Assembly (NCBI RefSeq): GCF_040530035.1
Contig: NZ_JBEWCD010000001.1
Span: 806,001-870,000, forward strand
Direction of reading: 5' to 3'
Length of the DNA: 64,000 nucleotides
Source: Roseibium sp. HPY-6
Lineage (GTDB): Bacteria; Pseudomonadota; Alphaproteobacteria; Rhizobiales; Stappiaceae
Below, piece by piece: positions 7,765-61,212 of this stretch; within the stretch, counting starts at the first letter, position 1, and the number at the start of each line of letters is the position of its first letter. Under the pieces are notes generated by a model. The model did not search any database, had not been told where the DNA came from, and saw only the letters and a program-made list of their open reading frames with translations. Both the position numbers and the translations under genes were made by a program.

Positions 7765-7778
7765 TTAAATCGATTTAA
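7765..7778. promoter_or_regulatory. LacI-type palindromic operator upstream of zwf
   Basis: Perfect 14-bp palindrome TTAAATCGATTTAA, 66 bases before the zwf ATG. The same word recurs in front of edd (one mismatch), pgi and the enolase-superfamily gene at 61.3 kb. A central CG flanked by AA and TT half-sites is the hallmark of LacI-family operators, so this is probably a repressor/activator site for an off-window regulator. Confidence 0.75.
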
Positions 7779-7844
7779 AAGCCCCCTGAAACCTCCTGGA
7801 AGCGCAAAGTCCGGGAGCAGACAGTCTTTTGGAAGGATAGTCTC

Positions 7845-9320
7845 ATGGCGGTACGCGTCATTGAAGTTCAAGAGTTCGACCTCGTTGTCTTCGGTGCTTC
7901 GGGCGACCTGGCTCACCGCAAACTTCTGCCCGCCCTCTATCATCGCGACGCGGATGGCCAGATGCCGGAAAAGGCACGGATCATCTGCAGTGCGCGCCGG
8001 GACTATACGGATGACGACTATCGGGCGTGGGCTAAAAAGGCACTTGAGGAACATGTCCACGACCTTGACAAGGAACACCTCGACCAGTTCCTAAAGCGAT
8101 TGCATTACGTGAAAATCGACGTGGCGGCTGCGGTCGGGTTCGAGGACCTGAAAACGATCCTTGATGAACGCGAAGACGTGATCAGGGCGTTTTACCTTGC
8201 CGTTGGCCCGGACCTGTTCGGGACGATCTGCGAGAACCTCGGCCGTGTCGGCGTCGTCAACAGCCACGCGCGGGTCGTGATCGAGAAACCGATCGGCAAG
8301 GACGGTGCGTCGGCCAAGGCTCTCAACGACACCGTTGGTGCCGTTTTCAACGAACACCAGATATTCCGTATCGATCACTACCTCGGCAAGGAAACCGTTC
8401 AAAACCTGATGGCGCTGAGGTTTGCCAATGCGCTGTTCGAACCGCTCTGGAATGCGGCCCATATCGACCACGTTCAGATTACCGTGGCCGAATCCCTGGG
8501 CGTCGGTGGTCGCGCCGGTTATTACGACACGGCCGGAGCGCTGCGGGACATGGTTCAGAACCATATTCTTCAGCTCCTTTGCCTGGTCGCCATGGAGCCG
8601 CCCGAATCGATGAATGCCGACAGCGTCCGGGATGAGAAACTGAAAGTCCTGAAGGCTCTCTCGCCGATTGATGCCCAAAGCGCAGACAAACTGACCGTAC
8701 GTGGACAATACCGGGCTGGGGCCTCCGCCGGCGGCGCTGTGCCTGGCTATCTTGAGGAACTGGGCGACGACGACAGCCGCACGGAAACCTTCGTTGCTCT
8801 CAAGGCGGAAATTGCCAACTGGCGTTGGGCCGGCGTGCCGTTCTACCTGCGGACCGGCAAACGGCTTGCACAGCGCGTTTCGGAGATTGTCGTTCAATTC
8901 CGCCCGATACCGCATTCGATCTTCGACACGGAAACCGGGAAAGTCACTGCAAACCGCCTCATTATCCGTCTGCAACCGGATGAAGGCGTCAAGATGCAGA
9001 TCATGATCAAGGACCCGGGCCCTGGCGGCATGAGACTGAGGCAGGTCCCGCTCGACATGAGTTTTGCCGAGGCGTTCAAGGTGCGTAATCCGGATGCTTA
9101 TGAGCGCTTGATCATGGATGTGATCCGCGGCAATCAGACCCTTTTCATGCGGCGCGACGAAGTGGATGCCGCCTGGGCCTGGGTCGACCCCATCTTGGCG
9201 GCCTGGAGTTCCTCCAAGGAAACGCCTAAGGGATATACCGCAGGCACTTGGGGGCCCTCGGCGTCCATCGCACTCGTCGAACGCGACGGACGCACGTGGT
9301 CCGAAGAGGACTCGGTCTAG
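7845..9320 (+). CDS. zwf: Glucose-6-phosphate 1-dehydrogenase
   Basis: 491 residues, normal length. Oxidises glucose-6-phosphate to 6-phosphoglucono-1,5-lactone with NAD(P)+. The N-terminal Rossmann motif is VVFGASGDLAHRKLLPAL, EKPIGKD lies in the middle, and the substrate-binding RIDHYLGKE, with its active-site His and Lys, is at about 176-184. First gene of the Entner-Doudoroff block; preceded by the TTAAATCGATTTAA operator and followed 134 bases later by edd. There is no pgl gene next to it, unlike the zwf-pgl-edd order common in rhizobia. Confidence 0.95.
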   Translation: MAVRVIEVQEFDLVVFGASGDLAHRKLLPALYHRDADGQMPEKARIICSARRDYTDDDYRAWAKKALEEHVHDLDKEHLDQFLKRLHYVKIDVAAAVGFEDLKTILDEREDVIRAFYLAVGPDLFGTICENLGRVGVVNSHARVVIEKPIGKDGASAKALNDTVGAVFNEHQIFRIDHYLGKETVQNLMALRFANALFEPLWNAAHIDHVQITVAESLGVGGRAGYYDTAGALRDMVQNHILQLLCLVAMEPPESMNADSVRDEKLKVLKALSPIDAQSADKLTVRGQYRAGASAGGAVPGYLEELGDDDSRTETFVALKAEIANWRWAGVPFYLRTGKRLAQRVSEIVVQFRPIPHSIFDTETGKVTANRLIIRLQPDEGVKMQIMIKDPGPGGMRLRQVPLDMSFAEAFKVRNPDAYERLIMDVIRGNQTLFMRRDEVDAAWAWVDPILAAWSSSKETPKGYTAGTWGPSASIALVERDGRTWSEEDSV

Positions 9321-9360
9321 GAGGGCAGGACAGGGGCAGAACTTGTCTGCCTTCCGTCAT

Positions 9361-9374
9361 TTAAATCGATTAAA
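9361..9374. promoter_or_regulatory. LacI-type operator upstream of edd
   Basis: TTAAATCGATTAAA matches the zwf/pgi palindrome at 13 of 14 positions and lies 80 bases before the edd ATG. A weak hairpin (GGCAGA, 5-base loop, TCTGCC at 9335-9351) just upstream may end zwf transcripts, so edd-eda probably has its own regulated promoter here. Confidence 0.65.
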
Positions 9375-9454
9375 ATGAGCAAAAGCGGCGAAACCGCCCT
9401 ATTTGCCCTGATGAACATGACCCAGCCACAAGTGGCGAGGAAAGGACTTCAAAA

Positions 9455-11275
9455 ATGGCTCTCCAGGACCGAATTGGTGAAGTTACGGAACGGATTGTCA
9501 AACGCAGCCATGACAGCCGGTCCATCTATCTGGACCGGATCGGACAGGCGGCCGACAAGGGACCGCAACGATCCCGGCTCTCTTGCGGCAACCTGGCGCA
9601 CGGTTTCGCCGCATGCGGCGTTTCCGACAAGCAGGCTCTTTCAGGCGACGTCGTTCCAAATCTTGGCATTATCACGGCCTACAATGACATGCTGTCGGCG
9701 CACCAGCCCTACGAGACCTATCCTTCTCTTATCCGGGAGGCCGCCCACGAGGTCGGTGCGGTTGCCCAGGTGGCGGGTGGGGTGCCGGCCATGTGCGACG
9801 GCGTTACCCAGGGCCAGGACGGCATGGAACTGTCTTTGTTTTCGCGCGACGTGATCGCGATGGCCGCCGCCGTCGGGTTGTCCCATCAGATGTTCGACGC
9901 TGCGGTCTTTCTCGGCATTTGCGACAAGATCGTGCCCGGGCTTGCGATCGCCGCCCTCTCCTTCGGTCACCTGCCCGCGGTCTTCATACCCGCAGGACCG
10001 ATGACAACCGGCATCTCGAACGACGACAAGGCCAAGGTGCGTCAGCTCTATGCTGAAGGAAAGGTCGGGCGGGACGCCCTCCTGGAAAGCGAATCGAAGG
10101 CCTATCATTCGCCCGGCACCTGCACGTTCTACGGCACGGCAAACTCCAACCAGATGCTGATGGAAATCATGGGGCTTCATATGCCTGGCGCCTCCTTCAT
10201 CAACCCGGGCACACCGCTCCGTGACGCGCTGACCAGGGAAGCAACCAGGCGTGCGCTCGCGATTTCGGCGCTTGGAAACGAGTTCACGCCTGCGGGCGAA
10301 ATCATTGACGAAAAAGCGATCGTCAACGGTGTCGTCGGATTGCACGCAACCGGCGGATCGACCAACCACACGATGCATCTGGTTGCGATTGCAGCGACCG
10401 CCGGCATCAAGCTGACTTGGGACGACATATCCGACCTTTCCGATGTCGTGCCGCTGCTGGCCCGTGTTTATCCGAACGGCAAGGCGGATGTGAACCACTT
10501 CCAGGCGGCCGGCGGGCTCGCGTTCCTGATCCGGGAACTTCTTTCAGACGGCTATCTCCACCAGGATGTCAAAACCGTCTACGGCACCGATCTGTCGGGC
10601 TATACGGTCGAAGCCGGGCTTGACGAAGACGGCAACGTGGTGCGCCAGGACGCGCCACAGGTATCAGGCGATGAAACGGTGCTCGCACCGCTTGCCAAAG
10701 CCTTCCAACCGACAGGCGGCCTGAAAATGCTGACCGGAAATATGGGCAAGGCGGTCATCAAGGTTTCGGCCGTTGCAAAGGAGCGCCACATCATAGAGGC
10801 CCCTGCCCGCGTCTTTCATTCCCAGGACGACTTTCTGGACGCCTTCAACAACAAGGAACTGAAAGGCGACGTCGCCGCTGTCGTTCGCTTCCAGGGCCCG
10901 AAGGCGATTGGCATGCCGGAACTGCACAAACTGACGCCATGCCTCGGGATCTTGCAGGACAAGGGCTACAAGGTTGCACTGATCACCGATGGCCGCATGT
11001 CTGGTGCGTCCGGCAAAGTCCCGGCAGCAATCCATGTTACGCCGGAAGCGGCAAGCGGGGGTCCGATTGCCCGGATCAAGGACGGCGACATGATCCGGAT
11101 CAATGCGGAGACCGGTGAATTGCAAGTTCTTGTCAATGAAGCCGAATTCAATGCCCGCCCCCTGGCGGAAAGTGACCTGAGCGCGCACCAGTTCGGCGTC
11201 GGCAGGGATTTGTTCGCCGCCTTCCGCGCAAATGTCGGTGCTGCCGACGATGGCGCGCACGTGTTCAGCGCTTGA
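9455..11275 (+). CDS. edd: Phosphogluconate dehydratase
   Basis: 606 residues of the IlvD/Edd family. Dehydrates 6-phosphogluconate to 2-keto-3-deoxy-6-phosphogluconate (KDPG), the first committed Entner-Doudoroff step, using a [4Fe-4S] cluster. Family landmarks are [13 protein letters not shown], the cluster-cysteine regions [20 protein letters not shown] and GICDKIVPG, and the C-terminal [38 protein letters not shown] precedes ATG 9455. The eda gene follows after 22 bases, so the two are almost certainly one operon. Confidence 0.95.
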
Positions 11276-11297
11276 GACTGACAAACGGGAGACCTCA

Positions 11298-11936
11298 ATG
11301 GCACAGGATATAAAGAAAATCGAAGCCGTCATGTGCGCTGCGCCGGTGATCCCGGTACTCGTTGTCGAAGACCCGCGCAAAGCCGTGCCAATGGCCGAAG
11401 CGCTCGTTCGCGGCGGCTTACCGGCCATCGAAATCACGCTTCGCACCAAACACGCGCTCGAAGCCATTGATGCCGTCAACGAGCACGTCGAAGGGGCGAT
11501 GGTCGGAGCCGGTACGGTCTTGAACGGCGAGCAATATGATGCAGCCGTGTCCGCCGGAGCACGTTTCATTGTGTCTCCCGGCGCAACGGAGACCCTGCTG
11601 GATGCGGCTGATGAACACAGCGTCCCGCTCCTTCCCGGCGCTGCCACGGCGTCCGAGGTCATGTATCTACTGGAACGCGGCTATGAACGATTGAAGTTCT
11701 TCCCGGCGGAACAGGCCGGGGGCGCGTCCTACCTTAAGTCACTCTCCTCGCCGCTTGCAGCCGCGAAGTTCTGTCCGACTGGCGGCGTCAGCCTCGACAA
11801 GGCGCCTGACTATCTGGCTTTGCCGAATGTTCTATGTGTCGGCGGGTCCTGGATTGCGGACGCAAAGGCGATCGCAGCGGAAGACTGGGCAGGTATCGAA
11901 GAACGCGCGCGCGCCGCCGCCGGACTGAACGACTAA
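11298..11936 (+). CDS. eda: KDPG aldolase (2-dehydro-3-deoxy-6-phosphogluconate aldolase)
   Basis: 212 residues. Class I aldolase splitting KDPG into pyruvate and glyceraldehyde-3-phosphate. The catalytic Glu is in PAIEITLRT and the Schiff-base Lys in YERLKFFPAE; the phosphate-binding CPTGGVS is near the C terminus. An upstream in-frame ATG at 11232 lies inside edd; ATG 11298, preceded by GGGAG (11288-11292), is the better start and gives the usual family length. Cotranscribed with edd. Confidence 0.95.
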   Translation: MAQDIKKIEAVMCAAPVIPVLVVEDPRKAVPMAEALVRGGLPAIEITLRTKHALEAIDAVNEHVEGAMVGAGTVLNGEQYDAAVSAGARFIVSPGATETLLDAADEHSVPLLPGAATASEVMYLLERGYERLKFFPAEQAGGASYLKSLSSPLAAAKFCPTGGVSLDKAPDYLALPNVLCVGGSWIADAKAIAAEDWAGIEERARAAAGLND

Positions 11937-11979
11937 AAACAGACCAGGAGGCAGCCGGAAACGGTCGATCGCCTTGCGC

Positions 11980-12585
11980 TTAGGCGTCTTCCGTCTCTGG
12001 AACCGCGTCTTCGCTGGCATCGGCGCCCTCGCAGCTGCCGGTTTCTTCAAGCGTGCGGTTCCAGAGGAGCCTGAGACCGGCCGACCTGTCGTTGCGCCAG
12101 GCAAACTCCGCGACCACCGGCTTTTCGAATTTGTTCATTGTCAGAAGAACTTCTTCGGGCATCGCTGTGAGGCCCTCCGCCTTGACCCGGCACCCGTTCT
12201 TGGCCGCATCGACGATGACACCGGTTATCTCGGTAATACCCTCCAGGTCCGCGATCGTGACGGGAATCTTGACGTCGTTTCGCTTTTCACGGCGTTTGTC
12301 CGACACGGAACTTTCGCTACTGGAAAAAACAACTGCCGCATCGTTTCCCTTGACCGACGTGACATGTGCCTTTGATAGCTTCCTCGAGCCGGAAAGCCGA
12401 ATACCGATGTTTTTGTAGAGTTCCTCTACGTGTTCGGAAGTAACGCAGCAGCCCCACTCGTTCACATTCGTCACCACGGCGTCGATGATTGCAAGCGTAT
12501 CGAAATCGACGACCTGCACCTCTTCGCGAACGTCGGGATTTCCCTGAAGGTGGGCCAGATCATGCGGAGTTTTGGCAGAGCACAT
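11980..12585 (-). CDS. PilZ-domain protein, possibly with a degenerate second PilZ-like repeat
   Basis: About 201 residues from ATG 12585 (a TTG at 12639 would add 18). The C-terminal half has a PilZ fold with RREKR (the c-di-GMP RxxxR motif) followed by DAAKNGCRV, matching DxSxxG with Ser replaced by Ala. The N-terminal half (DAVVTNVNEWGCCV and following) looks like a decayed copy with the NxNxxG turn but no RxxxR. Acidic tail EGADASEDAVPETEDA. No strong ribosome binding site helps to choose the start. It may be a c-di-GMP effector. It sits on the opposite strand between eda and pgi and has no clear link to sugar metabolism. Confidence 0.7.
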   Translation of the reverse strand: MCSAKTPHDLAHLQGNPDVREEVQVVDFDTLAIIDAVVTNVNEWGCCVTSEHVEELYKNIGIRLSGSRKLSKAHVTSVKGNDAAVVFSSSESSVSDKRREKRNDVKIPVTIADLEGITEITGVIVDAAKNGCRVKAEGLTAMPEEVLLTMNKFEKPVVAEFAWRNDRSAGLRLLWNRTLEETGSCEGADASEDAVPETEDA

Positions 12586-12839
12586 GCGATTACAGCCTGG
12601 ATCGGTTCCTGATGCATTGTTCGTGGCACTGGGACACAACCCATGAAAGATAGGCGAGAACTCCTAATTTCTCGTCAATTTTGGACTTGGCTTTGCGGTT
12701 ACACCCAAATCAGGTCTCAAGCCGTGAACAGGGACCGCGCGCCAGTGCAAACCGGAAGGATCCCGAGAAAAATCTCCACTCTGTCAAAATGCTGTGCTAT
12801 GGGATGCGCACACTCGCTGAACAATGGAAATTCAACCGT

Positions 12840-12853
12840 TTAAATCGATTTAA
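12840..12853. promoter_or_regulatory. LacI-type operator upstream of pgi
   Basis: Perfect TTAAATCGATTTAA palindrome, ending only 11 bases before the pgi ATG. It abuts the Shine-Dalgarno region (AGGGGATG), a position that would let a bound repressor block transcription initiation or early elongation. Confidence 0.75.
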
Positions 12854-12864
12854 GGGGATGTCTC

Positions 12865-14487
12865 ATGGCGCTCGAAGACGCGTTTGGTGCACTCGGCCAA
12901 CAAGCTGCAAGGCTGAACAAGACCACGCTCCGGGACCTGTTTTCAAGCGACCCTCAGCGGTTCGAAAACCTCTCAGCGCGTACCGACGACCTGCTCCTGG
13001 ATTATTCAAAGACGAAACTTGACACCGACACCCTGCAGCTTCTGATAAAGCTGGCCGAGGCTGCCGACGTCGCCGGCCGGAGGGACGCAATGTTCTCCGG
13101 CGAAAAGATTAACACGACCGAAAACCGCGCGGTGCTCCATACCGCCCTTAGAAACCGCTCGGACAAGCCCGTTTTTGTCGATGGCCAGGATGTCATGCCG
13201 GATGTTCGTGCGGTGCTGGACGCGATGGCTGATTTTTCCGAAGCAGTGCGCGCGGGCGAACTGACATCGTCAACAGGCGCACCGTTCACCGACGTGGTCA
13301 ATATCGGTATCGGCGGCTCAGATCTGGGCCCGGTTATGGCGACCCTGGCGCTGTCGCCCTATCACGACGGCCCCGAGCTGCACTACGTATCCAACGTTGA
13401 CGGTGCTCATGTTGCCGACACGCTTGCCACACTCGACCCTGCAACGACCTTGATCATCGTCGCGTCGAAGACTTTCACGACCATCGAGACGATGACAAAC
13501 GCTGCGACGGCACGCCAATGGATCGCCGGAGCCCTCGGCGAAGATGCCGTTGGGCAGCACTTTGCCGCCGTTTCGACAGCGCTCGAAAAAGTTTCGGCGT
13601 TCGGGATCGATGAAAGCAGGGTGTTCGGTTTCTGGGACTGGGTCGGTGGCCGTTACTCCATCTGGTCGGCCATCGGCCTGCCCCTGATGATCGCAATAGG
13701 GCCGGACGCTTTCGGCGACTTTCTGGAGGGCGCACACGCGCTCGATGTCCACTTCAAAGAAGCTCCTCTGGATCAGAACCTGCCGGTTCTCATGGCGCTC
13801 ATCGGGGTTTGGAACAGGGATGTGCTGGGACACTCTGCGCGCGCGGTGCTGCCTTACGATCAGCGCCTTGCCCGGCTCCCTGCTTACCTGCAACAGCTCG
13901 ACATGGAATCGAATGGCAAGGGTGTCAGACTGGACGGCAGTCCGGTCCAACAGGCCACAGGTCCCCTTGTCTGGGGAGAGCCCGGCACCAACGGCCAGCA
14001 TGCCTTCTATCAGCTCCTGCATCAGGGCACGACGGTCATCCCCTGCGAGTTTCTGATCGCCAAGAACGGACACGAAGAAGACCTCCAGCAGCATCACGAC
14101 CTTCTGATGGCAAACTGCCTCGCGCAATCCGAAGCCTTGATGCTTGGCCGCACGCTTGATGAGGCTAACGCGATCCTGAGCGCATCGGGCCTATCGGCCG
14201 AAGACATCGAAAAGCTCGCCCCGCACAAGGTGTTTCCGGGAGACCGCCCTTCCCTGACACTCGTCTACGACAAGCTGACACCTTTTGCTCTCGGACGGCT
14301 GATCGCCCTTTATGAGCACCGTGTCTTTGTTGAGGGCGTCATCTGGGGGATCAATTCGTTCGACCAGTGGGGCGTTGAGCTTGGCAAGGAACTGGCAACC
14401 GCTCTTCTGCCCATGATCAAGGGCGACGTGGCTGCCGACGAGAAAGATGCGTCGACGAAAGGCTTGCTGAAGGTGCTGAAAGACTGA
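12865..14487 (+). CDS. pgi: Glucose-6-phosphate isomerase
   Basis: 540 residues. Interconverts fructose-6-phosphate and glucose-6-phosphate. Active-site [11 protein letters not shown] is at about 149-159, SKTFTTIET follows at about 200, and the PGI signature [15 protein letters not shown] is at about 254-268; the C-terminal catalytic region [14 protein letters not shown] is also present. Here it links FrcK to Zwf: fructose-6-phosphate must be isomerised to glucose-6-phosphate before entering the Entner-Doudoroff genes. It shares the same operator word as zwf and edd. Confidence 0.95.
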
Positions 14488-14727
14488 GTTACACAAGGTG
14501 AACAGAATTTTAACGGAAGCGACGACAGGCATTCGCCGCCGCCATACTTTTGCCCTACGTGCGCTATCTGTTTCGCATCACAAAAAGACTTTGGCCGGAT
14601 CGCCGGTTGCCTTCTGTGCGCTGAGGGAATTGATAGATTGCCCCGACGTGCAAAGCAGCTTAACCTTGCCAAGACTTTAAACTATTGAACGCGCCGCGCC
14701 GGGCGGCCCTGAAGGGAGTTACCTTTA

Positions 14728-14997
14728 ATGAAGAAGTTTGTTTTGCTCGCTGCAATCGGTGTTGCGTTGGCAGGTTGCCAGTCTGACAGCCAGACCGACC
14801 GTGCTCTGGTCGGTGGTGGCCTTGGTGCCGCAACCGGTGCGGCAATCGGTGCTGCGGCAACGGGTGATGTCGGCGGCGCCCTCGTCGGTGGCGCAATCGG
14901 TGCTGCAGGCGGCGCAATTGTCGGCGCGGCGACAACACCGAAAAACTGCGTTGCCTATGACCGCTACGGCAACCCGTATCGCGTAGCGTGCCCGTAA
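14728..14997 (+). CDS. Small glycine-zipper lipoprotein, copy 1
   Basis: 89 residues. Lipoprotein signal MKKFVLLAAIGVALAGC with lipobox LAGC (lipidated Cys about residue 17), then QSDSQTDRALVGGG, a glycine-zipper segment rich in GxxxG (about 27-67), and a conserved tail CVAYDRYGNPYRVACP. Likely anchored in the outer or inner membrane from the periplasmic side; the zipper may insert in or pack against membrane. The function of this family is not known to me; distant relatives are the OsmB/Rick_17kDa_Anti type proteins. GGGAG precedes the ATG. First of four tandem paralogues. Confidence 0.85.
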   Translation: MKKFVLLAAIGVALAGCQSDSQTDRALVGGGLGAATGAAIGAAATGDVGGALVGGAIGAAGGAIVGAATTPKNCVAYDRYGNPYRVACP

Positions 14998-15057
14998 GGC
15001 ACGCCACGATCCTCTAAGGATGAGATGGGTCTTCGCCTGACCCACAGGAACAAATCG

Positions 15058-15327
15058 ATGAAGAAAATACTGCTTGTCGCCGCGGTTGCGGCCCTTCTGG
15101 CCGGTTGTCAATCAGACAGCCAGACGGATCGTGCACTCGTCGGCGGCGGCCTTGGTGCAGCAACAGGCGCGATCATCGGAGCAGCAGCCGGAAATGGTGC
15201 GGGACCCGCGCTTGCCGGCGCTGCAATCGGTGCAGCCGGCGGTGCGATCGTCGGAGCGGCGACAACGCCGAGAAACTGCGTCGCGTATGATCGCTACGGC
15301 AATCCCTACCGGGTGGCTTGCCCCTGA
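15058..15327 (+). CDS. Small glycine-zipper lipoprotein, copy 2
   Basis: 89 residues, nearly identical in design to the gene 60 bases upstream: MKKILLVAAVAALLAGC lipobox, the same QSDSQTDRALVGGGLGAATG block and the same CVAYDRYGNPYRVACP tail; most changes are in the middle of the zipper. ATG 15058 follows CAGGAACAAATCG; an upstream in-frame ATG at 15025 would add 11 residues before the lipoprotein signal and is unlikely. Clearly a recent duplicate of copy 1. Confidence 0.85.
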   Translation: MKKILLVAAVAALLAGCQSDSQTDRALVGGGLGAATGAIIGAAAGNGAGPALAGAAIGAAGGAIVGAATTPRNCVAYDRYGNPYRVACP

Positions 15328-15553
15328 TCAAAATAGCACCTCGCGGCTCCGGATCTTAACGAGCCGTTTAGGTTACGGATTCAATAATGAGTTGAATTGG
15401 ATTTGAACGTTTTGGCCGTGCGCAAGAACGAAGGGTGAAATTATGGATTGATTTCAAAGCCTTCGACGCCATGCATACAGCTGAAGCCGGGCGGTCCGAC
15501 AGGCGGCGCTGATGGCGTTGCCGAAACTAGCTCATTTTGAGGTCGTATCCGAA

Positions 15554-15772
15554 ATGAAGAAAATCCTGGTGGTGGCTGCAGTAGCCACGTTACTTGCCGG
15601 CTGCACGTCAAGCAGACAGACAGACCGCGCTATTATCGGCGGCAGTCTTGGGGCCGCAACAGGTGTTATTGTCGGAGCTGCGGTCGGTGCAGGCGCTGCA
15701 CCGGTGATCGCCGGAGCGGCCCTTGGGGCAGCCGGCGGCGCTGCAATCGGCGCTGCCACAACACCGAACTAA
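15554..15772 (+). CDS. Small glycine-zipper lipoprotein, copy 3 (short, lacks the C-terminal tail)
   Basis: 72 residues. Lipobox signal MKKILVVAAVATLLAGC, then TSSRQTDRAIIGGSLGAATG and a glycine zipper, ending in AIGAATTPN. The stop comes exactly where the other three copies continue with the Cys-bracketed tail ending in (V/R)xCP. It has therefore either lost the tail through an early stop or represents a tailless variant. A longer start at 15512 would precede the signal peptide and is not favoured. Confidence 0.8.
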   Translation: MKKILVVAAVATLLAGCTSSRQTDRAIIGGSLGAATGVIVGAAVGAGAAPVIAGAALGAAGGAAIGAATTPN

Positions 15773-15885
15773 CTGACGTGGGCGGAAATGCTCCGCGATC
15801 AGGCTTGGATAACTTTCTCCGGTAAGGTTCTGTTAACCATACATCTCCACGCTGAGAAGGACTTTTCCTTCGCTGGGGAGCGTGG

Positions 15886-16158
15886 ATGAAACCGTTTCTT
15901 GCCGTTACAGCCGTCTCTGTCCTTTTGGCAGGCTGCGTCAATACCGAAAGCCAGCGCGACAGAATGTTGATCGGAGCCGGGCTCGGTGCTGCGACTGGCG
16001 CGACAATCGGAGCCGTCGCGGGCTCGACTGTGAATGCGACACTTGCCGGCGCCGCGCTCGGAGCCATCGGCGGCGGCTTGGTCGGCGTCGTAACCACCCC
16101 GCGCAACTGCATTGCCCAAGACCAGAACGGCACGCCTTACAAGGTTAGATGCCCGTAG
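15886..16158 (+). CDS. Small glycine-zipper lipoprotein, copy 4 (divergent)
   Basis: 90 residues. Signal MKPFLAVTAVSVLLAGC with lipobox; VNTESQRDRMLIGAGLGAATG and a zipper; tail CIAQDQNGTPYKVRCP. It has the same architecture as copies 1 and 2 but is the most divergent. GGGGAG lies about 5 bases before the ATG. The gene is closed by the strong bidirectional terminator at 16212-16240. Confidence 0.85.
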   Translation: MKPFLAVTAVSVLLAGCVNTESQRDRMLIGAGLGAATGATIGAVAGSTVNATLAGAALGAIGGGLVGVVTTPRNCIAQDQNGTPYKVRCP

Positions 16159-16211
16159 TCAGAACTTGCCAAAGGCAAGAACGGGCTGACAATGTCGGGC
16201 CATCAAACGTG

Positions 16212-53872: not shown

Positions 53873-53897
53873 TATACCTCTCCTGTTTTGCGCCGCG

Positions 53898-54623
53898 TCA
53901 GGCGGCATTGGAATGGTCCTCGCCCAGATAGGCATCTATGACGTCCTGATTTGTTGTTATCTCTCGGGGCGTACCTTCAGCGATCACGGCTCCCATGTTC
54001 AGGACCGTGATCCTGTCGCAGAGCGTCATGATGAATTTGAGATCGTGATCGATGACCAGTGTGGCGCAGCCGAAGCGGGTCTTGACCCAGTCAAGCGCTG
54101 CGGCCAGCTCTTCCGTTTCCTGCTCGTTCATACCGGCGGCCGGTTCGTCGAGCATGAGCACCTTTGGGTTAAGCGCAAGCGCACGCACGATCTCCAGGCG
54201 CCTGAGATGACCGTAAGAAAGCGCGTTCGCCGGCATGCGCAGCTTGCCTTTTAGGTCAAACCGCGCCACAGCCTCATCAATCGCCGTGAGGTCCTCATGG
54301 CCTTCGGATCGAGCGGTGATTTGCGCGACCTCAATGTTCTGTCCAACCGACAGGTTCTCAAAGATGCGAAGGTTCTGGAACGTGCGCGCAATTCCCTTGC
54401 GGGTTCTGGCTGCCGCTCCCTTTCCATCCAGAATGTCACCATCAAGGGACATGGTGCCGCTTGATGGCGTCAAGAGACCGGAAATCAGATTGATCAAGGT
54501 CGTCTTGCCCGCCCCATTCGGCCCGATCAGTCCGCGCACCTCACCCGCCGCCACTTCGAATCTCACATCGCTGACGGCTCTGACACCGCCAAACTGTTTC
54601 GAAATGTCATTGAGCACGAGCAT
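53898..54623 (-). CDS. Branched-chain-type ABC transporter, ATP-binding protein (LivG)
   Basis: 241 residues. Walker A LIGPNGAGKTTLINLISGLL about 32-51, GIARTFQNLRIFENLSV (LivG-type), ALSYGHLRRLEI as a variant signature (LSYG instead of LSGG), Walker B LMLDEPAAGMNEQE. Starts at ATG 54623, sharing its A with the TGA stop of the glutamine-synthetase homologue (TGATG), so the two are coupled. Confidence 0.88.
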   Translation of the reverse strand: MLVLNDISKQFGGVRAVSDVRFEVAAGEVRGLIGPNGAGKTTLINLISGLLTPSSGTMSLDGDILDGKGAAARTRKGIARTFQNLRIFENLSVGQNIEVAQITARSEGHEDLTAIDEAVARFDLKGKLRMPANALSYGHLRRLEIVRALALNPKVLMLDEPAAGMNEQETEELAAALDWVKTRFGCATLVIDHDLKFIMTLCDRITVLNMGAVIAEGTPREITTNQDVIDAYLGEDHSNAA

Positions 54624-55933
54624 CAATAGACATCCTCGTAGGCTGCACATTTCTGCGCTGTTTCCATGCCTTCGAGAAAGGCCGCTTCGGCCTTCTTGTG
54701 GGCCAGATAAACGGAGGCAAAGTCTGGATCGAACCAGCCGGTGACAACTTCGTTTGCCGCAAACCGCTCAAGAGCGGCTTCAAGGGTTTCCGGCAACCGC
54801 ACGAAGCCTTTCTGACTGAGTTCTTCTGCGCTCAGAAGGGACAGATCCTCTTCGGTGACTTGCGGTGCCGCGAGTTTTTCCTCGATGCCCTGGCAACCCG
54901 CGTGAACGATTGCCGCAAGTGCCAGATGCGGCGACGCGGCAGCGTCCCCGGCCCGGTATTCAATGTTGAACTGACGCGCAATCGCGTCCGAGTCCGTTGC
55001 TGTCACCGGACAGATGCGCAGGCTTGCTTCGCGGTCCTGAAGGCCGAGATTGTTGTAGGCCGCGCTCCAGCGGTGCGGTGTCAAACGCTCATAGGAAATG
55101 ACGGACGGCGCCGTAAGCGCAAGAATGCTATCGAGATATTTCAGAACGCCGGCGGCAAACGATGCCGTCAGCGTTGAAAGCCCATACGCCCCCGCCGCGT
55201 CGTATGTCAGTGGCCCGTTATCGCCCATGAAACTCATGTGGATGTGGACACCATTGCCGACGCTCGACACATCACGAATTGGCGTGAACGTCGCTGCTTG
55301 CTCGAACCTGCGCGCGGTCATGCGTGCCAGCTCGCGCGTGATCACCGCCGCATCGGCTGCTTTCACTCCCTCTTCCGGTGCGATAGTCACCTCGAACTGA
55401 TCCGGTCCATATTCACAGATGAAACTGTCCGGTGTCAGGCCGGCCTGCTCCAGAGCGGCCAAAAGCGTTTCTGCAAAACCGGAATGTTCTGCATGTCCTT
55501 GCAATCCGAACCCCTGATGCATGAGGGTCGAACCAGCGGCAAATTGGAATTCGTGCTCGAAAGCAGCCAGCAGTCGCGCACCGGTCAGCTCCTTCAGCCG
55601 GGACAGAGCGGCACGCAGGATAGAGCGCGTGCAAAACCCCCAGGGCCGGTCGTCCAGCGTCCGGATATCCGACAGCATGAAACGCTCAGGCGGCGTGCCA
55701 TCTTCAAAATCGACGCTGATATCGGCTGACTGATCGGGAACGAGAGCAAGATCGCCGAAAGATCCGAAGGGGCTGTCGGCGATGGTGTCAAAACAGGTAA
55801 TTTGCACATTCGTCGGAACCCAGCCCATGCCGCGTTCGCACCGCTTGTTCAACTGGTCCGCCGGAAAGGCCTTGCCACGGGTTTTCCCGGAAAGATCTGA
55901 CGTCGCTGCGAATATCATCGGCTTACGTATCAT
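54623..55933 (-). CDS. Glutamine synthetase-family protein (GlnT/PuuA-like)
   Basis: 436 residues. Beta-grasp N domain (1-100) and catalytic domain with LLAAFEHEFQFAAG (metal Glu), GVHIHMSFMGDNG (the HxH-type metal/nucleotide site) and TAPSVISYERLTPHRWSAAY. Divergent from housekeeping GlnA; such paralogues ligate glutamate to amines or other nitrogen compounds (gamma-glutamylation), or vice versa. Lies between the RpiR gene (11-base overlap) and livG (1-base overlap), so it is part of the amide operon and may process the imported nitrogen compound or the released ammonia. Confidence 0.85.
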   Translation of the reverse strand: MIRKPMIFAATSDLSGKTRGKAFPADQLNKRCERGMGWVPTNVQITCFDTIADSPFGSFGDLALVPDQSADISVDFEDGTPPERFMLSDIRTLDDRPWGFCTRSILRAALSRLKELTGARLLAAFEHEFQFAAGSTLMHQGFGLQGHAEHSGFAETLLAALEQAGLTPDSFICEYGPDQFEVTIAPEEGVKAADAAVITRELARMTARRFEQAATFTPIRDVSSVGNGVHIHMSFMGDNGPLTYDAAGAYGLSTLTASFAAGVLKYLDSILALTAPSVISYERLTPHRWSAAYNNLGLQDREASLRICPVTATDSDAIARQFNIEYRAGDAAASPHLALAAIVHAGCQGIEEKLAAPQVTEEDLSLLSAEELSQKGFVRLPETLEAALERFAANEVVTGWFDPDFASVYLAHKKAEAAFLEGMETAQKCAAYEDVY

Positions 55934-56789
55934 GTCCGAGCTCCTGCCTCCCCTCCGTCAGGGCGTCCCACGCCGACACACGCTTGCTGTGTTTGGTCCA
56001 GTCCGTCTCGGCAACCCGCGTCATGATTGCCTCCATTAGCGTGAAACCTGCGGCGTAGCTGTCCCACACGGTGCCGCTTTCTACCGGGACGGCAAGCGTT
56101 TCACGCGCGTGGGTCACGGCGGGCGACAGCCACTTGTCCGTCAGCACGACCACATTCGCCTTCCTCTCGGTGGCCGCGAGCTTCGCAAGGTCGGTCACCG
56201 TTCGCTGGTATCGCCGGAAATCAACGACGAAGAGCACGTCCTTGCCGCGCATTTTCAATAGGCTGTCGGGCCAGGTTTCGGGGTCGGGATCGATATGAAA
56301 AACATCGTCGCGCAACCGCTTCAAATGGCGGCTTAGATGCTGCGCCACCAGATCACTCACACGTCCGCCCATCACGAAAATCCGCCGACCCGGATCGCTG
56401 AGCAGATCGCAGACACGTTCGAACTGAGCGTCGGTAATGCTCTGCGCCATTTCATCTATGAGCGCATTGGCGCGCCTGGTAAAATCACCCAGAAAAGATC
56501 CATCGACCTCGCGCTCCACCACCATCAGTTCGATCGGCGAACGCTGGCTCGCTTTCAGCTCCTGGATCAGTCTGCGTTGAAAGTCCTGATACCCCTGAAA
56601 CCCCAGTTTCGAGACAAACCGCGAAATCGACGGAGACGAAATGCCCGTGCGTTCGGCAAGAACCTGAATGGGTTCAAGCCCGGCGAAAGGGTAATCCGAC
56701 AGAAGCGTTGTCGAGAGCTTGCGCTCCGCTCCGGTCAACGCCTCTGAAGTCCCGGTAATCAGATCACGGATTGTGCTGTGAGCCACCAT
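55923..56789 (-). CDS. RpiR-family regulator (helix-turn-helix plus SIS domain)
   Basis: 288 residues from ATG 56789. N-terminal HTH_6 (about 1-75) with IQVLAERTGISSPSISRFVS, and a SIS domain (about 115-245) with GRRIFVMGGRVSDLVAQHLS and KDVLFVVDFRRYQRTV. RpiR proteins usually sense phosphosugars; here it heads an operon for amide uptake and nitrogen handling. Divergent, 92 bases, from the N-formylglutamate-amidohydrolase-like gene, so it likely controls both transcripts. No strong ribosome binding site; the start could be at 56825. Confidence 0.85.
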   Translation of the reverse strand: MVAHSTIRDLITGTSEALTGAERKLSTTLLSDYPFAGLEPIQVLAERTGISSPSISRFVSKLGFQGYQDFQRRLIQELKASQRSPIELMVVEREVDGSFLGDFTRRANALIDEMAQSITDAQFERVCDLLSDPGRRIFVMGGRVSDLVAQHLSRHLKRLRDDVFHIDPDPETWPDSLLKMRGKDVLFVVDFRRYQRTVTDLAKLAATERKANVVVLTDKWLSPAVTHARETLAVPVESGTVWDSYAAGFTLMEAIMTRVAETDWTKHSKRVSAWDALTEGRQELGHDT

Positions 56790-56881
56790 GTCACGCAGAG
56801 TGAGCTGATAAAAAAATCTTGTCAAGCTTTGCTATTTGTGACGAAATGAAAAAAGATTATCAAATCCTTCTGGAGCTCTTC

Positions 56882-57673
56882 ATGCTCAAGGAAGCGGCAT
56901 ATTCCGCGGAAAATATGGGCAAAACCTTCCTTGCCGAGACGGATCCCGAACCTGTCGACTGCATCAGGGGACGCGAAGGTGCGGACGTGGTGCTTGTATG
57001 TGAACATGCCGGACGCGCGATACCGAAAAGGCTCGGCAGCCTTGGACTGATGCCGGAACATCTGGACAGGCACATTGCCTGGGATATCGGCGCGCTCGCC
57101 GTTTCCGAGCGGATTGCGGCAAATCTCGGTGCAGACCTGATCAAGCAGCGCTACTCGCGGCTTGTCTATGACTGCAACCGACCGTTCGAGGCATCGGACG
57201 CGACACCCGAAGTGAGCGAAGACGTTACGATCCCGGGCAACAGGAACCTTTCGCCCGAGGAACGCATGATCCGCAAGCGGACAATCTTCGACCCCTATGA
57301 TGCCGCGTTGACCGCGATACTGGATGAACGGCCGAAACGGGCGGCTTTCGCCATCCATTCCTTCACGCCGGTCTATCTTGGCAAGCACCGCCCCTGGCAT
57401 CTGGGTCTTCTATCGAGGACGGATCCGGATACCGCGGATATCATCGCTGCAACCATGCAAAGACGCGACAACCGGATGCTGGTCGGCAAGAATGTCCCCT
57501 ACATGATCGAGGAAGACAGCGACTGGTTCATCCCGCGCCATGCCGAACCACGAGGTCTTGCGCATTGCCTGATTGAAATCCGCAACGACCTCATCGACAC
57601 CAAAGTAGGCCAGAACATCTGGGCGGATCACCTGACCGCTGCCTTCAAGGATGTGCTGGAGAAAAGGAAATGA
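56882..57673 (+). CDS. N-formylglutamate amidohydrolase-family protein
   Basis: 263 residues from ATG 56882 (TGGAG 6 bases upstream). FGase fold: GADVVLVCEHAGRAIPKRLG, HIAWDIGALAVSERIAANLG, KQRYSRLVYDCNRP, and HSFTPVYLGKHRPWHLGLLS. The family splits N-formyl or N-acyl groups from amino acids (HutG2) and includes unassigned members. Overlaps the next gene by ATGA. Together with formamidase and the cysteine hydrolase this makes three C-N hydrolases in one locus. Confidence 0.82.
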   Translation: MLKEAAYSAENMGKTFLAETDPEPVDCIRGREGADVVLVCEHAGRAIPKRLGSLGLMPEHLDRHIAWDIGALAVSERIAANLGADLIKQRYSRLVYDCNRPFEASDATPEVSEDVTIPGNRNLSPEERMIRKRTIFDPYDAALTAILDERPKRAAFAIHSFTPVYLGKHRPWHLGLLSRTDPDTADIIAATMQRRDNRMLVGKNVPYMIEEDSDWFIPRHAEPRGLAHCLIEIRNDLIDTKVGQNIWADHLTAAFKDVLEKRK

Positions 57674-58311
57674 TGCTTACACGCGAAGTCCCGCTTTTGC
57701 CGGATCAGTCCGGCCTGCTTTTCATAGACGTCCAGAACTTTGCCGCGCATCGCAGGGGGGCGGAATTCGACGGACTGTCCGACGAGGAGTTCGACCGGAA
57801 ATACGGCTGGTTCTTCTCGGAAATGAAGACCCGCGTGGTTCCAAATATGCAACGGCTTCAGAAGGCATGCCGCGAAAGCAATGTCGAAGTGATGTACACA
57901 ACGATCGAAAGCCTCACGAAAGACGGACGCGACCGCAGTCTCGACTACAAGATCACGGGTTTCAATGTCCCCAAGGGTTCCTGGGACGGGAAGGTCATCG
58001 ACGAGCTGGAACCGGGAGACGATGAGATCCTCTTTCCCAAGTCCTCCTCCTCCGTCTTCGTCTCCACGCATATCCACTACGTGCTCGGCAATCTTGGCAT
58101 CCGGCAACTCGTGATCAGCGGCATCGTCACAGATCAGTGTGTTGAGAGCGCCATCCGCGATGCCTGCGATCTCGGTTATCTGGTCACACAGGTAACAGAT
58201 GCCTGCCTGACCTACACACAGGAAAGACACGATAACTCCCTGAAAACCATCAAAGGCTATTGCCGCCAGGTCACGACGGACGAGCTGATCGCGGAACTGG
58301 AAAACGCATAG
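57670..58311 (+). CDS. Isochorismatase-family cysteine hydrolase
   Basis: 213 residues. Catalytic triad residues visible: Asp20 (LLFIDVQNFAAH), Lys in ILFPKSSSSVF (about 124) and Cys in GIVTDQCVESAIRDA (about 155). The family includes N-carbamoylsarcosine amidase, nicotinamidase, maleamate and ureidoacrylate amidohydrolases, so hydrolysis of an amide or carbamoyl group is expected. ATG overlaps the upstream stop; AAAGGAA is the ribosome binding site. Confidence 0.85.
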   Translation: MMLTREVPLLPDQSGLLFIDVQNFAAHRRGAEFDGLSDEEFDRKYGWFFSEMKTRVVPNMQRLQKACRESNVEVMYTTIESLTKDGRDRSLDYKITGFNVPKGSWDGKVIDELEPGDDEILFPKSSSSVFVSTHIHYVLGNLGIRQLVISGIVTDQCVESAIRDACDLGYLVTQVTDACLTYTQERHDNSLKTIKGYCRQVTTDELIAELENA

Positions 58312-58330
58312 GCGGCGTGCCAGTTGGAAA

Positions 58331-58356
58331 GCCCGGCGCTGAATTCAGCGCCGGGC
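58331..58356. terminator. 26-bp perfect palindrome between convergent genes
   Basis: 13-bp arms GCCCGGCGCTGAA and TTCAGCGCCGGGC with no spacer, centred on GAATTC. It lies between the convergent cysteine hydrolase (stop 58311) and TIM-barrel (stop 58379) genes. It would form a very stable hairpin in either transcript, but neither side has a T-run, so termination may be incomplete or rho-dependent. Confidence 0.6.
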
Positions 58357-58378
58357 GGATGTCCGTAAGCGCGTCATC

Positions 58379-59242
58379 TTACCCGAAATGGTCCTTGAAC
58401 CGATCAACACACAGGCGGAAACCGACCTCGAAATCGCCGTTGCCCGGATGGTAGACACTCTCCAACGAGATCACGCCGTCATAGGCATCGGCTCTCAGCG
58501 CTGCGGCCATCGGTTCAAACAGATCCGCGAGCTGGCCCTCGCCCATGCGTTTCACCTCAAGCGTGGCGCGGGGCGTATCGACGAGAACGTCCTTGATGTG
58601 AACATGGCCGAGGTAACCGCCTTTCAGCTCCTCATAGCCGTCCGGATAAGCCCGCTCGTGACACCAGCAATTGTTCGCCGGATCCCAAAGCACTTTGAGG
58701 GTATCCCTTGCATCAAGATCGTCGATCAGCTTGCGCGCGGTGTAGTTGGAGTTGACCATCGTGCCGTTCCCGGTTTCCACGACAAGCGTCAGTCCCTCAG
58801 ATCGCGCAAGCTCAACTGCCGGTGCGATCAGGGGAAGCGTCGCCTCCCACGCCCCCTTCGCAACATTCCACTTTTCAGCACCGCCCTTGCCCCAAAGGAT
58901 CTGTTCCTTCTTGTTGGTCATGATCCGGACCAGCGGCGAAGCAAGCTCATGCGCCATATCCATGACACGCTTCAAGGCGTCCATATGTGTCGTATGGAGC
59001 GCATCTCCCGGCTTGTTCGCCGTCGTCATGCCGGCAAAGACGTGCCGGGACAGACAGCTGACCGGTTTGCCGTGCTTCTCCAACAGAGCCTTGATCGCGG
59101 CAGTTTCCTGGGCTGAATGATCGCCGACTTCTTTCTCTCCGACAAACTGCAGCTCGGCATAGTCCAGGCCAAACTCGTCCATCACGGTTAGCGCGTGAGC
59201 GAGGTCACGGCTGATGCCGTCGCAAATGACACCGAGTTTCAT
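58379..59242 (-). CDS. Sugar phosphate isomerase/epimerase-type TIM barrel
   Basis: 287 residues of the AP_endonuclease_2/xylose-isomerase-like superfamily. Metal ligand positions: Glu in LTLVVETGNGTM, Asp in LKVLWDPANNCWCHE, His in GHVHIKDVL, Glu in GVISLESVYHPG. Typical reactions are aldose-ketose isomerisation or epimerisation of sugars and hydroxypyruvate-like acids. ATG overlaps the stop of the upstream dehydrogenase (ATGA). With that dehydrogenase it resembles two-gene parts of tetronate (threonate/erythronate) pathways. Confidence 0.83.
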   Translation of the reverse strand: MKLGVICDGISRDLAHALTVMDEFGLDYAELQFVGEKEVGDHSAQETAAIKALLEKHGKPVSCLSRHVFAGMTTANKPGDALHTTHMDALKRVMDMAHELASPLVRIMTNKKEQILWGKGGAEKWNVAKGAWEATLPLIAPAVELARSEGLTLVVETGNGTMVNSNYTARKLIDDLDARDTLKVLWDPANNCWCHERAYPDGYEELKGGYLGHVHIKDVLVDTPRATLEVKRMGEGQLADLFEPMAAALRADAYDGVISLESVYHPGNGDFEVGFRLCVDRFKDHFG

Positions 59243-60147
59243 GCTTTTTTGGCCTCCTCGCGATGGAGTTCAGCTCCGATGATCTCCTCAATCACGCGCG
59301 TGCAGATCCAGTTGTCGCCATTTGGGTATTTCGTTTTTCCCGCGTGGAAGATCTGCATGGCGGCAGCGGCCGTGTGAAGCGGTACGCCGAGTTCCTCGCC
59401 AAGGTTCATCGAAATTGTAAGATCCTTGTGCATGGTATTGATATGACTCCCGGTTCCCTCGAACTGGCGGTCGATGATTTTCTGCAATGCGTTGTTGACC
59501 ACCCCGCATCCCGCCGAAGAAGTCGAAAACACGTCCAGGATCACCTGCCCGGGCACGCCGCCCTTTGCCGCAAGCGCTGCCGCTTCAAAGGTTGCGGAGA
59601 ACTGCGCGCCGATCAGCGACTGCAGGCATGCCTTGACCGTCTGACCGTCACCCGCGCTGGTTCCCACGCGGTGTATGTTTGCTGAGACGGCCTCCATTAC
59701 GGGCTTGAACGTATCCAGAACAGCATCCGGCGCGGCTGCCATCATCGTGAGCGTGCCACCTTGAGCGCCTGGAAACCCGCCCGAGACGGGCGTGTCGATC
59801 AGGTGGATCCCGCTGCCGTCCAGCAGTGCCCCGACTTCACGCCCTTCGCGGGGCTTGATGGTTGCCGAAAGTATGATCGCACTGCCGGGCGCCATGGTCT
59901 CTCTCAAGCCGCCCTCCCCGAAGACCACGTCTTTGACCTGATCCCCGTTCATCACCATGACGAAGACCGCATCGGATCCTTCGCCGACGGCACCGGCACT
60001 TTCTGCGGCCTTCCCGCCCATCGCGGCAAATGCATTCATTCTGTCAGAAGAAAGGTCGAAACCCTTGGTTTCAAACCCGTTTGCGATCAGGTTCTTCGCG
60101 AGCCCGGAGCCCATGTCACCCAATCCGATCACACCAGTTTTCTGCAT
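59239..60147 (-). CDS. 3-hydroxyacid dehydrogenase, L-threonate dehydrogenase (LtnD)-like
   Basis: 302 residues from ATG 60147 (GGAGGAATTTGG upstream); the 66-residue extension is non-coding. Rossmann motif TGVIGLGDMGSGLAKNLIAN; substrate loop DTPVSGGFPGAQGGTLTMMA; catalytic Lys in GDGQTVKACLQSLIG; C-terminal helical domain. The family oxidises beta-hydroxy acids at C2 or C3 with NAD(P)+. LtnD-type enzymes act on L-threonate/D-glycerate-like acids. Paired with the TIM-barrel gene and next to GntR, enolase-superfamily and TRAP genes. Confidence 0.85.
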   Translation of the reverse strand: MQKTGVIGLGDMGSGLAKNLIANGFETKGFDLSSDRMNAFAAMGGKAAESAGAVGEGSDAVFVMVMNGDQVKDVVFGEGGLRETMAPGSAIILSATIKPREGREVGALLDGSGIHLIDTPVSGGFPGAQGGTLTMMAAAPDAVLDTFKPVMEAVSANIHRVGTSAGDGQTVKACLQSLIGAQFSATFEAAALAAKGGVPGQVILDVFSTSSAGCGVVNNALQKIIDRQFEGTGSHINTMHKDLTISMNLGEELGVPLHTAAAAMQIFHAGKTKYPNGDNWICTRVIEEIIGAELHREEAKKA

Positions 60148-60353
60148 CCAAATTCCTCCGGTTGCACAACGTAAACAGCCGGCGGAACTCACTTCTGCCG
60201 GCATCGATATGCGGGATTTCAAGCGGCGGTACCCGTTGGGGATTACCGGCGCCGGGCGGGTCCGGAAGACACCCGCTGCCCATGTCGATCCATCATGCCG
60301 GTCTCCGAGCGCGTCCTTGCAACACTTCTGGAGATCAGCTGGCATGACCCGTT

Positions 60354-61067
60354 TTAGAACGTCTCCTCAACGTAACTCCAGGCAGCGCTCAAATGCGCGA
60401 TGAGTGCATCTTCAGCGCGCGCAGGATCTCTCTCCAGGATGGCATCATAAATGGCCTTGTGATCGAGATAGACGGACCTGTTATGGTCGCCGGACCGCGT
60501 CATGCGGGCCCAGTTCGGTGACAGCCAGGCCGTAAAGCCCTCATGCATGGCCGGAAATATCGGATTGTTGCCGATGCGATAAAGAACGCCATGGAAAGCG
60601 ATATCCGTTCGGAAAAACTCTTCCGAATTGTCGAGCGCCTTTTCGTTGGCAAGAAGTGCTGCCTTGAGATCCGAGATGTTCTCCTTGGTCGCGTTGAGCG
60701 CGGCATCCCTGACCAGACCGCGCTCGATAAACACCCTGCTCTGATAGAGGTTTTGAATGCCGCCCGGCTCGTTCAGGAGATAGCGTACGATCGTTCCGGT
60801 GGCATTGAGCAGCGTGCCATAGTCGGGTCTCCGCACCACTGGCCTGAATCTGGGACGCAATTCGATGAGTCCGCGATTGGCAAGTGCCGAAATTGCTTCG
60901 CGCACAACCGTCCTCGACGTACCGAATTCTTCCATGAGATCTCGCTCTGGAGGCAATGGCTTGTTGTTGGCCAATTCGCCTGACGCAATGCGCGCTTCAA
61001 GGGCGGTCACAATCGTGTCCGCAGCCCGTTTCTCTCCCTGTTTGTCCGGCATCAAGGCATCAGCCAA
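60354..61067 (-). CDS. GntR-family regulator, FCD subfamily (FadR-like)
   Basis: 237 residues if started at TTG 61067; ATG 61052 is 15 bases inside, and neither has a clear ribosome binding site. Winged helix about 15-80 (PLPPERDLMEEFGTSRTVVR, EAISALANRGLIELRPRFRP) and a helical FCD domain about 100-225 with ALDNSEEFFRTDIAFHGVLY and IYDAILERDPARAEDALIAH. Divergent from the enolase-superfamily gene, with a TTGGT-N3-ACCAA dyad touching its own start. It probably controls both directions in response to an acid-sugar intermediate. Confidence 0.87.
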   Translation of the reverse strand: MADALMPDKQGEKRAADTIVTALEARIASGELANNKPLPPERDLMEEFGTSRTVVREAISALANRGLIELRPRFRPVVRRPDYGTLLNATGTIVRYLLNEPGGIQNLYQSRVFIERGLVRDAALNATKENISDLKAALLANEKALDNSEEFFRTDIAFHGVLYRIGNNPIFPAMHEGFTAWLSPNWARMTRSGDHNRSVYLDHKAIYDAILERDPARAEDALIAHLSAAWSYVEETF

Positions 61068-61080
61068 TTGGTTGTACCAA
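61068..61080. promoter_or_regulatory. GntR/FCD-type operator TTGGT-N3-ACCAA
   Basis: TTGGTTGTACCAA immediately upstream of the GntR start; fits the TNGTnnnACNA consensus of FadR-subfamily operators. Likely autoregulatory. Confidence 0.6.
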
Positions 61081-61198
61081 ACTCTCGTTTACTTTGACCA
61101 CAATGCTATGCCCCCATATTGTGCGAAAGCAAGCCTTTCCGCACATCATTTGATCACTACAAAAAAAATACATAAAAAACATATGGTTATATCTTTTT

Positions 61199-61212
61199 TT
61201 AAATCGATTTAA
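61199..61212. promoter_or_regulatory. LacI-type operator upstream of the enolase-superfamily gene
   Basis: Perfect TTAAATCGATTTAA, extended to a 16-bp palindrome (61198-61213), 112 bases before the start. Identical to the words before zwf and pgi, 48-53 kb away. Confidence 0.7.

Follow-up and report, generated by a model that had tools for sequence, protein, structure and literature searches.

A 14-bp palindrome upstream of zwf, edd and pgi in Roseibium sp. HPY-6, probable operator of a PckR orthologue

In Rhizobiales, genes of central carbon metabolism respond to PckR, a LacI-family regulator predicted in 2014 for Rhizobiaceae, Brucellaceae, Phyllobacteriaceae and Xanthobacteraceae (PMC4052901) and since then the subject of work in Sinorhizobium meliloti and Rhizobium leguminosarum (told in PMC8877191 and PMC11406972; here and below, the literature is cited from passages of these papers). 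PckR of S. meliloti is reported to repress zwf-pgl-edd and to induce pckA; in an R. leguminosarum pckR mutant, zwf1-pgl-edd were the most raised genes (PMC11406972). The reported motif is TNNAANCGNTT, and the effector that emerges from the S. meliloti work is phosphoenolpyruvate (both PMC8877191), while PMC4052901 calls the effector unknown. Under half of the global LacI-family regulators studied are autoregulated (PMC4052901). Here, we describe a 14-bp palindrome, TTAAATCGATTTAA, in a stretch of 64,000 nucleotides (the window) of the alphaproteobacterium Roseibium sp. HPY-6, positions 806,001 to 870,000 of contig NZ_JBEWCD010000001.1, where it precedes the Entner-Doudoroff genes zwf and edd, the isomerase gene pgi and a gene for an acid-sugar dehydratase. 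We take it to be the operator of the host's PckR orthologue, a global regulator of central carbon metabolism from the LacI family, the gene of which lies outside the window, and put the probability of this at roughly 0.87.

Similar tasks are carried out by other proteins elsewhere. GapR/CceR of Rhodobacterales (two names for one protein) and GluR of Caulobacter also exert global LacI-family control over zwf and edd genes; by their description, they are non-orthologous to PckR and have different motifs. HexR and FruR/Cra of gammaproteobacteria, again compared by description, likewise set the direction of central carbon flow; the former belongs to a different protein family (RpiR) and the latter is another LacI protein.

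The Roseibium system agrees with the PckR regulon of Rhizobiales (regulator SMc02975 of S. meliloti) in the family of the regulator, in the fit of the host box to TNNAANCGNTT, in a regulator gene not clustered with its targets, and in the targets zwf, edd, eda, pckA and a fructose-bisphosphate aldolase gene. It differs in that no pgl is recognised between host zwf and edd, compared with the rhizobial zwf-pgl-edd, and in that host pckR lacks a box of its own and host pckA has one box rather than two. Moreover, the passages cited do not name Stappiaceae, the family of Roseibium, among the families with PckR, nor pgi, kdsA-eno, kdgK or an acid-sugar cluster among its targets. The find is very probably the PckR regulon already known from rhizobia, in a genus new to it; an initial annotation of the window, made from its letters, knew of no such regulon described for this group, and the idea that it is undescribed was not borne out. 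No paper on PckR with Roseibium was found in a search outside of which most subscription journals lie, and nothing relevant was among the matches listed for Labrenzia with LacI.

The palindrome in the window and in the host genome

A scan of the window with up to two mismatches returned exactly four matches, perfect copies at 7765, 12840 and 61199 and one of 13/14 at 9361, where the mean expectation is 0.02 and none of 100 shuffles reached four. The initial annotation had already listed these four and placed them 11–112 bases upstream of start codons and outside coding sequence. This holds: the start codon lies 66 bases past the box end for zwf (ATG), 80 for edd (ATG), 11 for pgi (ATG) and 112 for the dehydratase (TTG), and all four boxes lie outside the genes supported by protein families. 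Five open reading frames (ORFs) overlap or adjoin boxes (7734-8078 minus, 9375-9854, 12681-13022, 60865-61212 and 61199-62287 minus); none has a Pfam match, and we regard all five as presumably spurious. The features around zwf, edd and pgi are these:

7765..7778, no strand: PckR-type box before zwf, perfect TTAAATCGATTTAA (genus conservation)
7845..9320, plus strand: zwf, glucose-6-phosphate dehydrogenase (TIGR00871 above cut-off)
9361..9374, no strand: PckR-type box before edd-eda, TTAAATCGATTAAA (13/14; motif scan)
9455..11275, plus strand: edd, 6-phosphogluconate dehydratase (TIGR01196 above cut-off)
11232..11936, plus strand: eda, 2-keto-3-deoxy-6-phosphogluconate (KDPG) aldolase, ORF start overlapping the edd end (TIGR01182 above cut-off)
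12831..12844, no strand: second, weaker box before pgi, TTCAACCGTTTAAA, overlapping the perfect one
12840..12853, no strand: PckR-type box before pgi, perfect, abutting the Shine-Dalgarno region (motif scan)
12865..14487, plus strand: pgi, glucose-6-phosphate isomerase (NF001211 above cut-off)

Across the 7.03-Mb genome, a scan with one mismatch allowed, the check proposed in the initial annotation, gave four perfect and two one-mismatch sites, and none for the reversed control pattern. The fourth perfect copy precedes kdsA, 21 bases past which an enolase ORF opens; its true start is probably later, because the enolase domain begins at residue 44. The second one-mismatch site, TTAAATCCATTTAA, is an asymmetric copy without the central CG and precedes kdgK, so named after its best NCBIfam model (2-dehydro-3-deoxygluconokinase), below the cut-off of which it scores. 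Five places have two mismatches: TTTAATCGATTAAA before pckA, with a response-regulator gene on its other side, TCAAATCGATTTAT before gnd, TTTAATTGATTTAA, again without the central CG, before fba, and those of an aminotransferase gene (L036) and of L037. At up to three mismatches, there is no excess (103 matches versus 115 for the control), and the motif is therefore sharp. The degenerate pattern TTNAANCGNTTNAA occurs at 17 host places versus 6 for the control; seven of the 17 are the boxes of zwf, edd, pgi (two), the dehydratase, pckA and kdsA.

The two pgi boxes are offset by nine bases and together span 12831-12853 (TTCAACCGTTTAAATCGATTTAA). Between zwf and edd (9321-9454), no pgl for a 6-phosphogluconolactonase was recognised; no genome-wide search for one was made. 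Directly upstream of zwf, 2389-7748 holds genes for a ROK-family regulator, sugar ABC transporter-type proteins and a pfkB-family kinase, the last of which also adjoins zwf in many relatives' loci.

The PckR orthologue and its sites in Roseibium and S. meliloti

The host genome has 26 matches to the LacI helix-turn-helix (HTH) domain, none of them in the window (C1:806001-870000). The initial annotation had likewise seen no LacI regulator there and had pointed to one encoded elsewhere that governs Entner-Doudoroff genes, which is supported by the boxes of zwf and edd together with the orthology of the following gene:

G000:C1:2419359-2420447, minus strand: L028, host PckR orthologue, LacI family (reciprocal best match)

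Comparison of three other host proteins (L009, L015 and L017) with plasmid records gave best places of less than 60% identity, PckR being named in none among the matches listed. Since the plasmid records were uninformative, one chromosome-sized record served as the S. meliloti reference; it holds 10 LacI HTH matches, nine above cut-off. L028 and the S. meliloti protein L052 (LZK74_31520) are reciprocal best matches among the 26 and nine proteins, with 47% identity. The recognition stretch STATVSLALRDSPLVA is identical in both, and among the host's 26 proteins only L028 has it. The gene following that of L052 encodes a 2-hydroxyacid dehydrogenase, and a KDPG aldolase gene, taken as eda2, lies 17 locus numbers away; the same spacing separates pckR from eda2 in R. 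leguminosarum (RL4145/RL4162) and Ensifer aridi (PEG3052/PEG3069). From this spacing, we infer that L052 is PckR of S. meliloti.

The boxes in S. meliloti fit both the targets and the distinction between single and double sites told in PMC8877191. Versions of 12/14 stand before zwf and before eda2, two boxes (11 and 12 of 14) before pckA, of which 246 of 353 aligned columns are identical to host pckA, and three (11, 11 and 12 of 14) before a class I aldolase gene that we take to be fbaB. The boxes of both organisms fit TNNAANCGNTT, the host kdgK and fba copies lacking the central CG, and the core targets pckA and edd, with zwf, are found with boxes in the host.

Conservation was followed in 37 genus genomes (the host and 36 relatives) and 24 others of the order. 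A single close copy of L028 is present in all 37 genus genomes (77–94% identity in the 36 relatives; one genome has an extra 39% match) and L028 has matches at E 1e-60 in three of the 24 genomes outside. Among its named relatives (the best 80 of at least 550), Roseibium and Labrenzia dominate the top, followed by Pannonibacter, Pseudovibrio and Stappia, and then by rhizobia and Brucellaceae. With up to one mismatch, all 36 same-genus relatives have matches (172 in total versus 6 for the control), so that the sites are conserved in related genomes, as the initial annotation would have it, while the 24 other genomes have 8 versus 13 for the control. Outside the genus, regulator and box coincide imperfectly: in G059, PckR is present and pckA is preceded by a box at a distance of 114 bases, and G055 has a 42% relative and a box before a transketolase-type gene.

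Tables of upstream regions cover 30 of the 37 genus genomes for zwf, pckA and edd, host included, and 23 of 37 for kdgK and the dehydratase. Upstream of zwf, the best match reaches 12–14 of 14 letters in 30/30, a control stretch inside the gene never exceeding 10; upstream of pckA, it is 12/14 in 30/30, with at most 9 in the control inside the gene. The edd box has at least 12/14 in 16/30 and 10/14 in 5/30; for kdgK, counted for the best gene copy in each genome, the near box has at least 12/14 in 7/23 and a weak 10/14 in 10/23.

From the 172 genus matches, 60 of the 70 among those listed (59 loci) were fetched and labelled. At 40 of the 59 relative loci, the site stands before zwf (12), edd (4), pgi (6), kdsA (5), gnd (2), kdgK (5), the dehydratase gene (1), fba (3) or pyc (2), and at 13 of 15 further loci (L068-L082) before zwf, kdsA, pgi or kdgK. 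"Before" means upstream of the start codon judged right; in L064, L106, L115, L116, L121 and L134, an in-frame start farther upstream would extend the gene as far as the box. In two relatives (L092 and L126, at 1501), the box is upstream of a partial pyruvate carboxylase-like gene, a gluconeogenic node.

One seemingly shared target was rejected: six relatives have TTAAATCGATTGAA close to uxaC and a TRAP gene, but all six copies lie inside coding sequence, five in dctP and one (L100) in uxaC. In dctP near uxaC (L063, L091, L098, L130 and L133, at 1501), TTAAATCGATTGAA, on either strand, encodes a conserved KPIKSIEDL. The dctP case cautions against motif counts made without a check of the reading frame.

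Several other host LacI genes have strong palindromes in their own promoters, AAATGTAAGCGCTTACATTT (L021), TTTTGCAACCGGTTGCAAAA (L019) and two TGTAATCGATTACA (L017), which are probable self-operators.

The acid-sugar dehydratase cluster

The fourth box of the window stands in a divergent intergenic region, with these features around it:

60354..61067, minus strand: GntR/FCD regulator, divergent, likely local regulator of the acid-sugar cluster (PF07729, PF00392)
61068..61080, no strand: TTGGTTGTACCAA, first candidate GntR operator (the window has just two TTGGTNNNACCAA)
61199..61212, no strand: perfect PckR-type box, upstream of the dehydratase and TRAP genes of the acid-sugar cluster (motif scan)
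61273..61285, no strand: TTGGTCGAACCAA, second candidate GntR operator (same letters in 3/3 aligned upstream regions)
61325..62440, plus strand: mandelate-racemase-family acid-sugar dehydratase (PF13378/PF02746)
62630..63667, plus strand: TRAP substrate-binding protein DctP (DctQ and DctM genes next, past the window end)

The best NCBIfam model of the dehydratase is talarate/galactarate dehydratase, below its cut-off, and the substrate is not settled; that of the GntR/FCD protein is the NanR subfamily, also below cut-off. Genes for DctP, DctQ, DctM, a PhyH-type dioxygenase, a Gfo/Idh/MocA oxidoreductase and a reductase follow 3′ of the dehydratase gene. The two TTGGTNNNACCAA palindromes, the only ones in the window, flank the dehydratase box on either side and are likely operators of the divergent GntR/FCD protein. 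The box itself is followed, 21 bases on, by a TTGACT hexamer, and the sign of control at this promoter is not predictable.

The link to acid sugars drawn in the initial annotation stands in part. The box is found before the 3/3 closest copies of the dehydratase gene (host 14, G013 14 and G020 13 of 14) and is absent from five of five paralogues (7–8 of 14, no more than the 7–10 of controls), and kdgK, the product of which feeds 2-keto-3-deoxygluconate into the Entner-Doudoroff pathway, has a box in part of the genus. On the other side, genes of the dehydratase kind occur in 5 of the 23 genus genomes searched and the box precedes them in only 3; as the whole upstream region has 85% mean column identity among these three, conservation of the box is in itself weak evidence, though the bases beside it differ in G020. 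The dehydratase gene thus looks like a rarely shared target rather than a core one, and kdgK like a more widely shared target related to acid sugars.

Alternative explanations and a proposed mechanism

Several observations weigh against PckR control or narrow its reach. The identity of PckR in S. meliloti comes from gene spacing, the record carrying no such name; two of the five S. meliloti TTNAANCGNTTNAA matches belong to other places (one upstream of feuN, the other between lumazine synthase and AraC genes); no box of at least 11/14 occurs within 274 bases before S. meliloti edd; and host pckA has one box at 10/14 or better where S. meliloti pckA has two at 11/14 or better. Within the genus, the edd box falls to 9/14 or less in 9 of the 30 genomes and the near kdgK box to 9/14 or less in 6 of the 23; a control far upstream of kdgK reached 11–12 in 3 of 27 rows (G015, G016 and G018), all without a near box, and letter-shuffled pckA upstream regions hit 12/14 in 5 of 1500 cases. 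Among the 59 labelled relative loci, 13 are of other kinds, some with transporter genes (MFS, ABC, TRAP) behind the site and several unassigned, and in one of the 59 the site partly covers the N-terminus of a response-regulator ORF of uncertain start. The initial annotation had held that many copies inside coding regions would speak against an operator; the host sites are all outside recognised genes, while 6 of the 59 relative loci have the site inside a gene (dctP 5, uxaC 1). Beyond the genus, G046 has a PckR of 54% identity and yet no site at up to one mismatch, and G038 has a site and yet no PckR match at E 1e-60. Finally, the initial annotation had proposed to look for a LacI-family gene whose own promoter contains the palindrome; the 15 kb around host pckR hold no match to T..AA.CG.TT..A. 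Autoregulation does not define the PckR regulon, because it is reported for some members only; elsewhere, a box of 12/14 in the own promoter was seen in only 3 of 80 pckR records, two of Stappia stellulata and one of a metagenome-assembled genome.

Given 26 LacI HTH matches in the host, another of these proteins (L016, L017, L009 or L015, for example) might bind the box, with the conservation of PckR a coincidence, and the TGTAATCGATTACA-type boxes in the L017 promoter do share the AATCGATT core. Their arms differ, however, from those of the 14-mer, and L016, second to L028 in the similarity of its DNA-binding domain to the S. meliloti protein, is present in 20 of the 37 genus genomes and missing at E 1e-60 from 17, all of which have box matches. 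As only L028 shares its recognition stretch with the S. meliloti protein, the reported targets of which carry the box, we consider binding by another host protein quite improbable. A regulator of the GapR/CceR, GluR or HexR type would account for some of the same targets: GapR and GluR are predicted over zwf and edd in other alphaproteobacteria, GapR also over pgi and pckA (PMC4052901), and PMC5507952 counts HexR and CceR among the global regulators of central carbohydrate genes. Such an assignment is very improbable, since motif and targets match PckR of S. meliloti, an orthologue of which is present in the host, and PMC4052901 describes GapR and GluR as non-orthologous to PckR and different in motif. 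Short perfect palindromes can also be mobile or structural repeats, an origin barely credible for a 14-mer with only four perfect copies in 7 Mb, with differing flanks, that marks zwf and pckA each in 30/30 genomes.

A further alternative concerns the box at 61199, which might serve local acid-sugar regulation or be a chance copy, unrelated to those of zwf, edd and pgi: the dehydratase gene has a GntR/FCD gene as its divergent neighbour, and the box was found in only three of the 23 genomes searched, with a well-conserved upstream region. The local GntR has candidate operators of its own, at 61068 and 61273, while the box agrees in all letters with a motif that has four perfect copies in 7 Mb and keeps 14, 14 and 13 letters in three genomes as neighbouring bases vary in G020. 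An unrelated origin of this box is thus unlikely.

If PckR is the regulator, a dimer would be expected to sit on the box. All 30 regions upstream of zwf share an unchanged GCTGACA, with the box six bases after it; were CTGACA the -35 hexamer of zwf, the right end of the box would cover the expected -10 interval, and for this reason we propose that PckR represses zwf. Scans with consensus promoters gave counts near those of shuffles, with no match at the boxes and the zwf promoter unrecognised, so the promoter positions are taken from conservation alone. At pgi, the box abuts the ribosome-binding region; about 130 bases separate the host pckA box from the start codon. Release and rebinding of PckR probably follow a glycolytic intermediate (phosphoenolpyruvate, judging by the S. 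meliloti work), and the switch would direct carbon between the Entner-Doudoroff pathway with lower glycolysis and gluconeogenesis. Within the genus, boxes also stand before kdsA(-eno), gnd, fba and kdgK and, in a few genomes, before the dehydratase/TRAP cluster.

The analysis assigns a regulator and a list of targets to central carbon control in Roseibium, with one operator kept at 11–14 of 14 letters between Roseibium and Sinorhizobium. It also suggests a small, testable extension toward the entry of acid sugars. Tentatively, and at slightly less than even odds, PckR of Roseibium may have grown from a switch between the Entner-Doudoroff pathway and gluconeogenesis into a controller of 2-keto-3-deoxygluconate entry, through kdgK, kdsA-eno and, in a few species, the dehydratase/TRAP genes with their own GntR operators. 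If so, the substrate and the level of a glycolytic intermediate would together gate the use of acid sugars.

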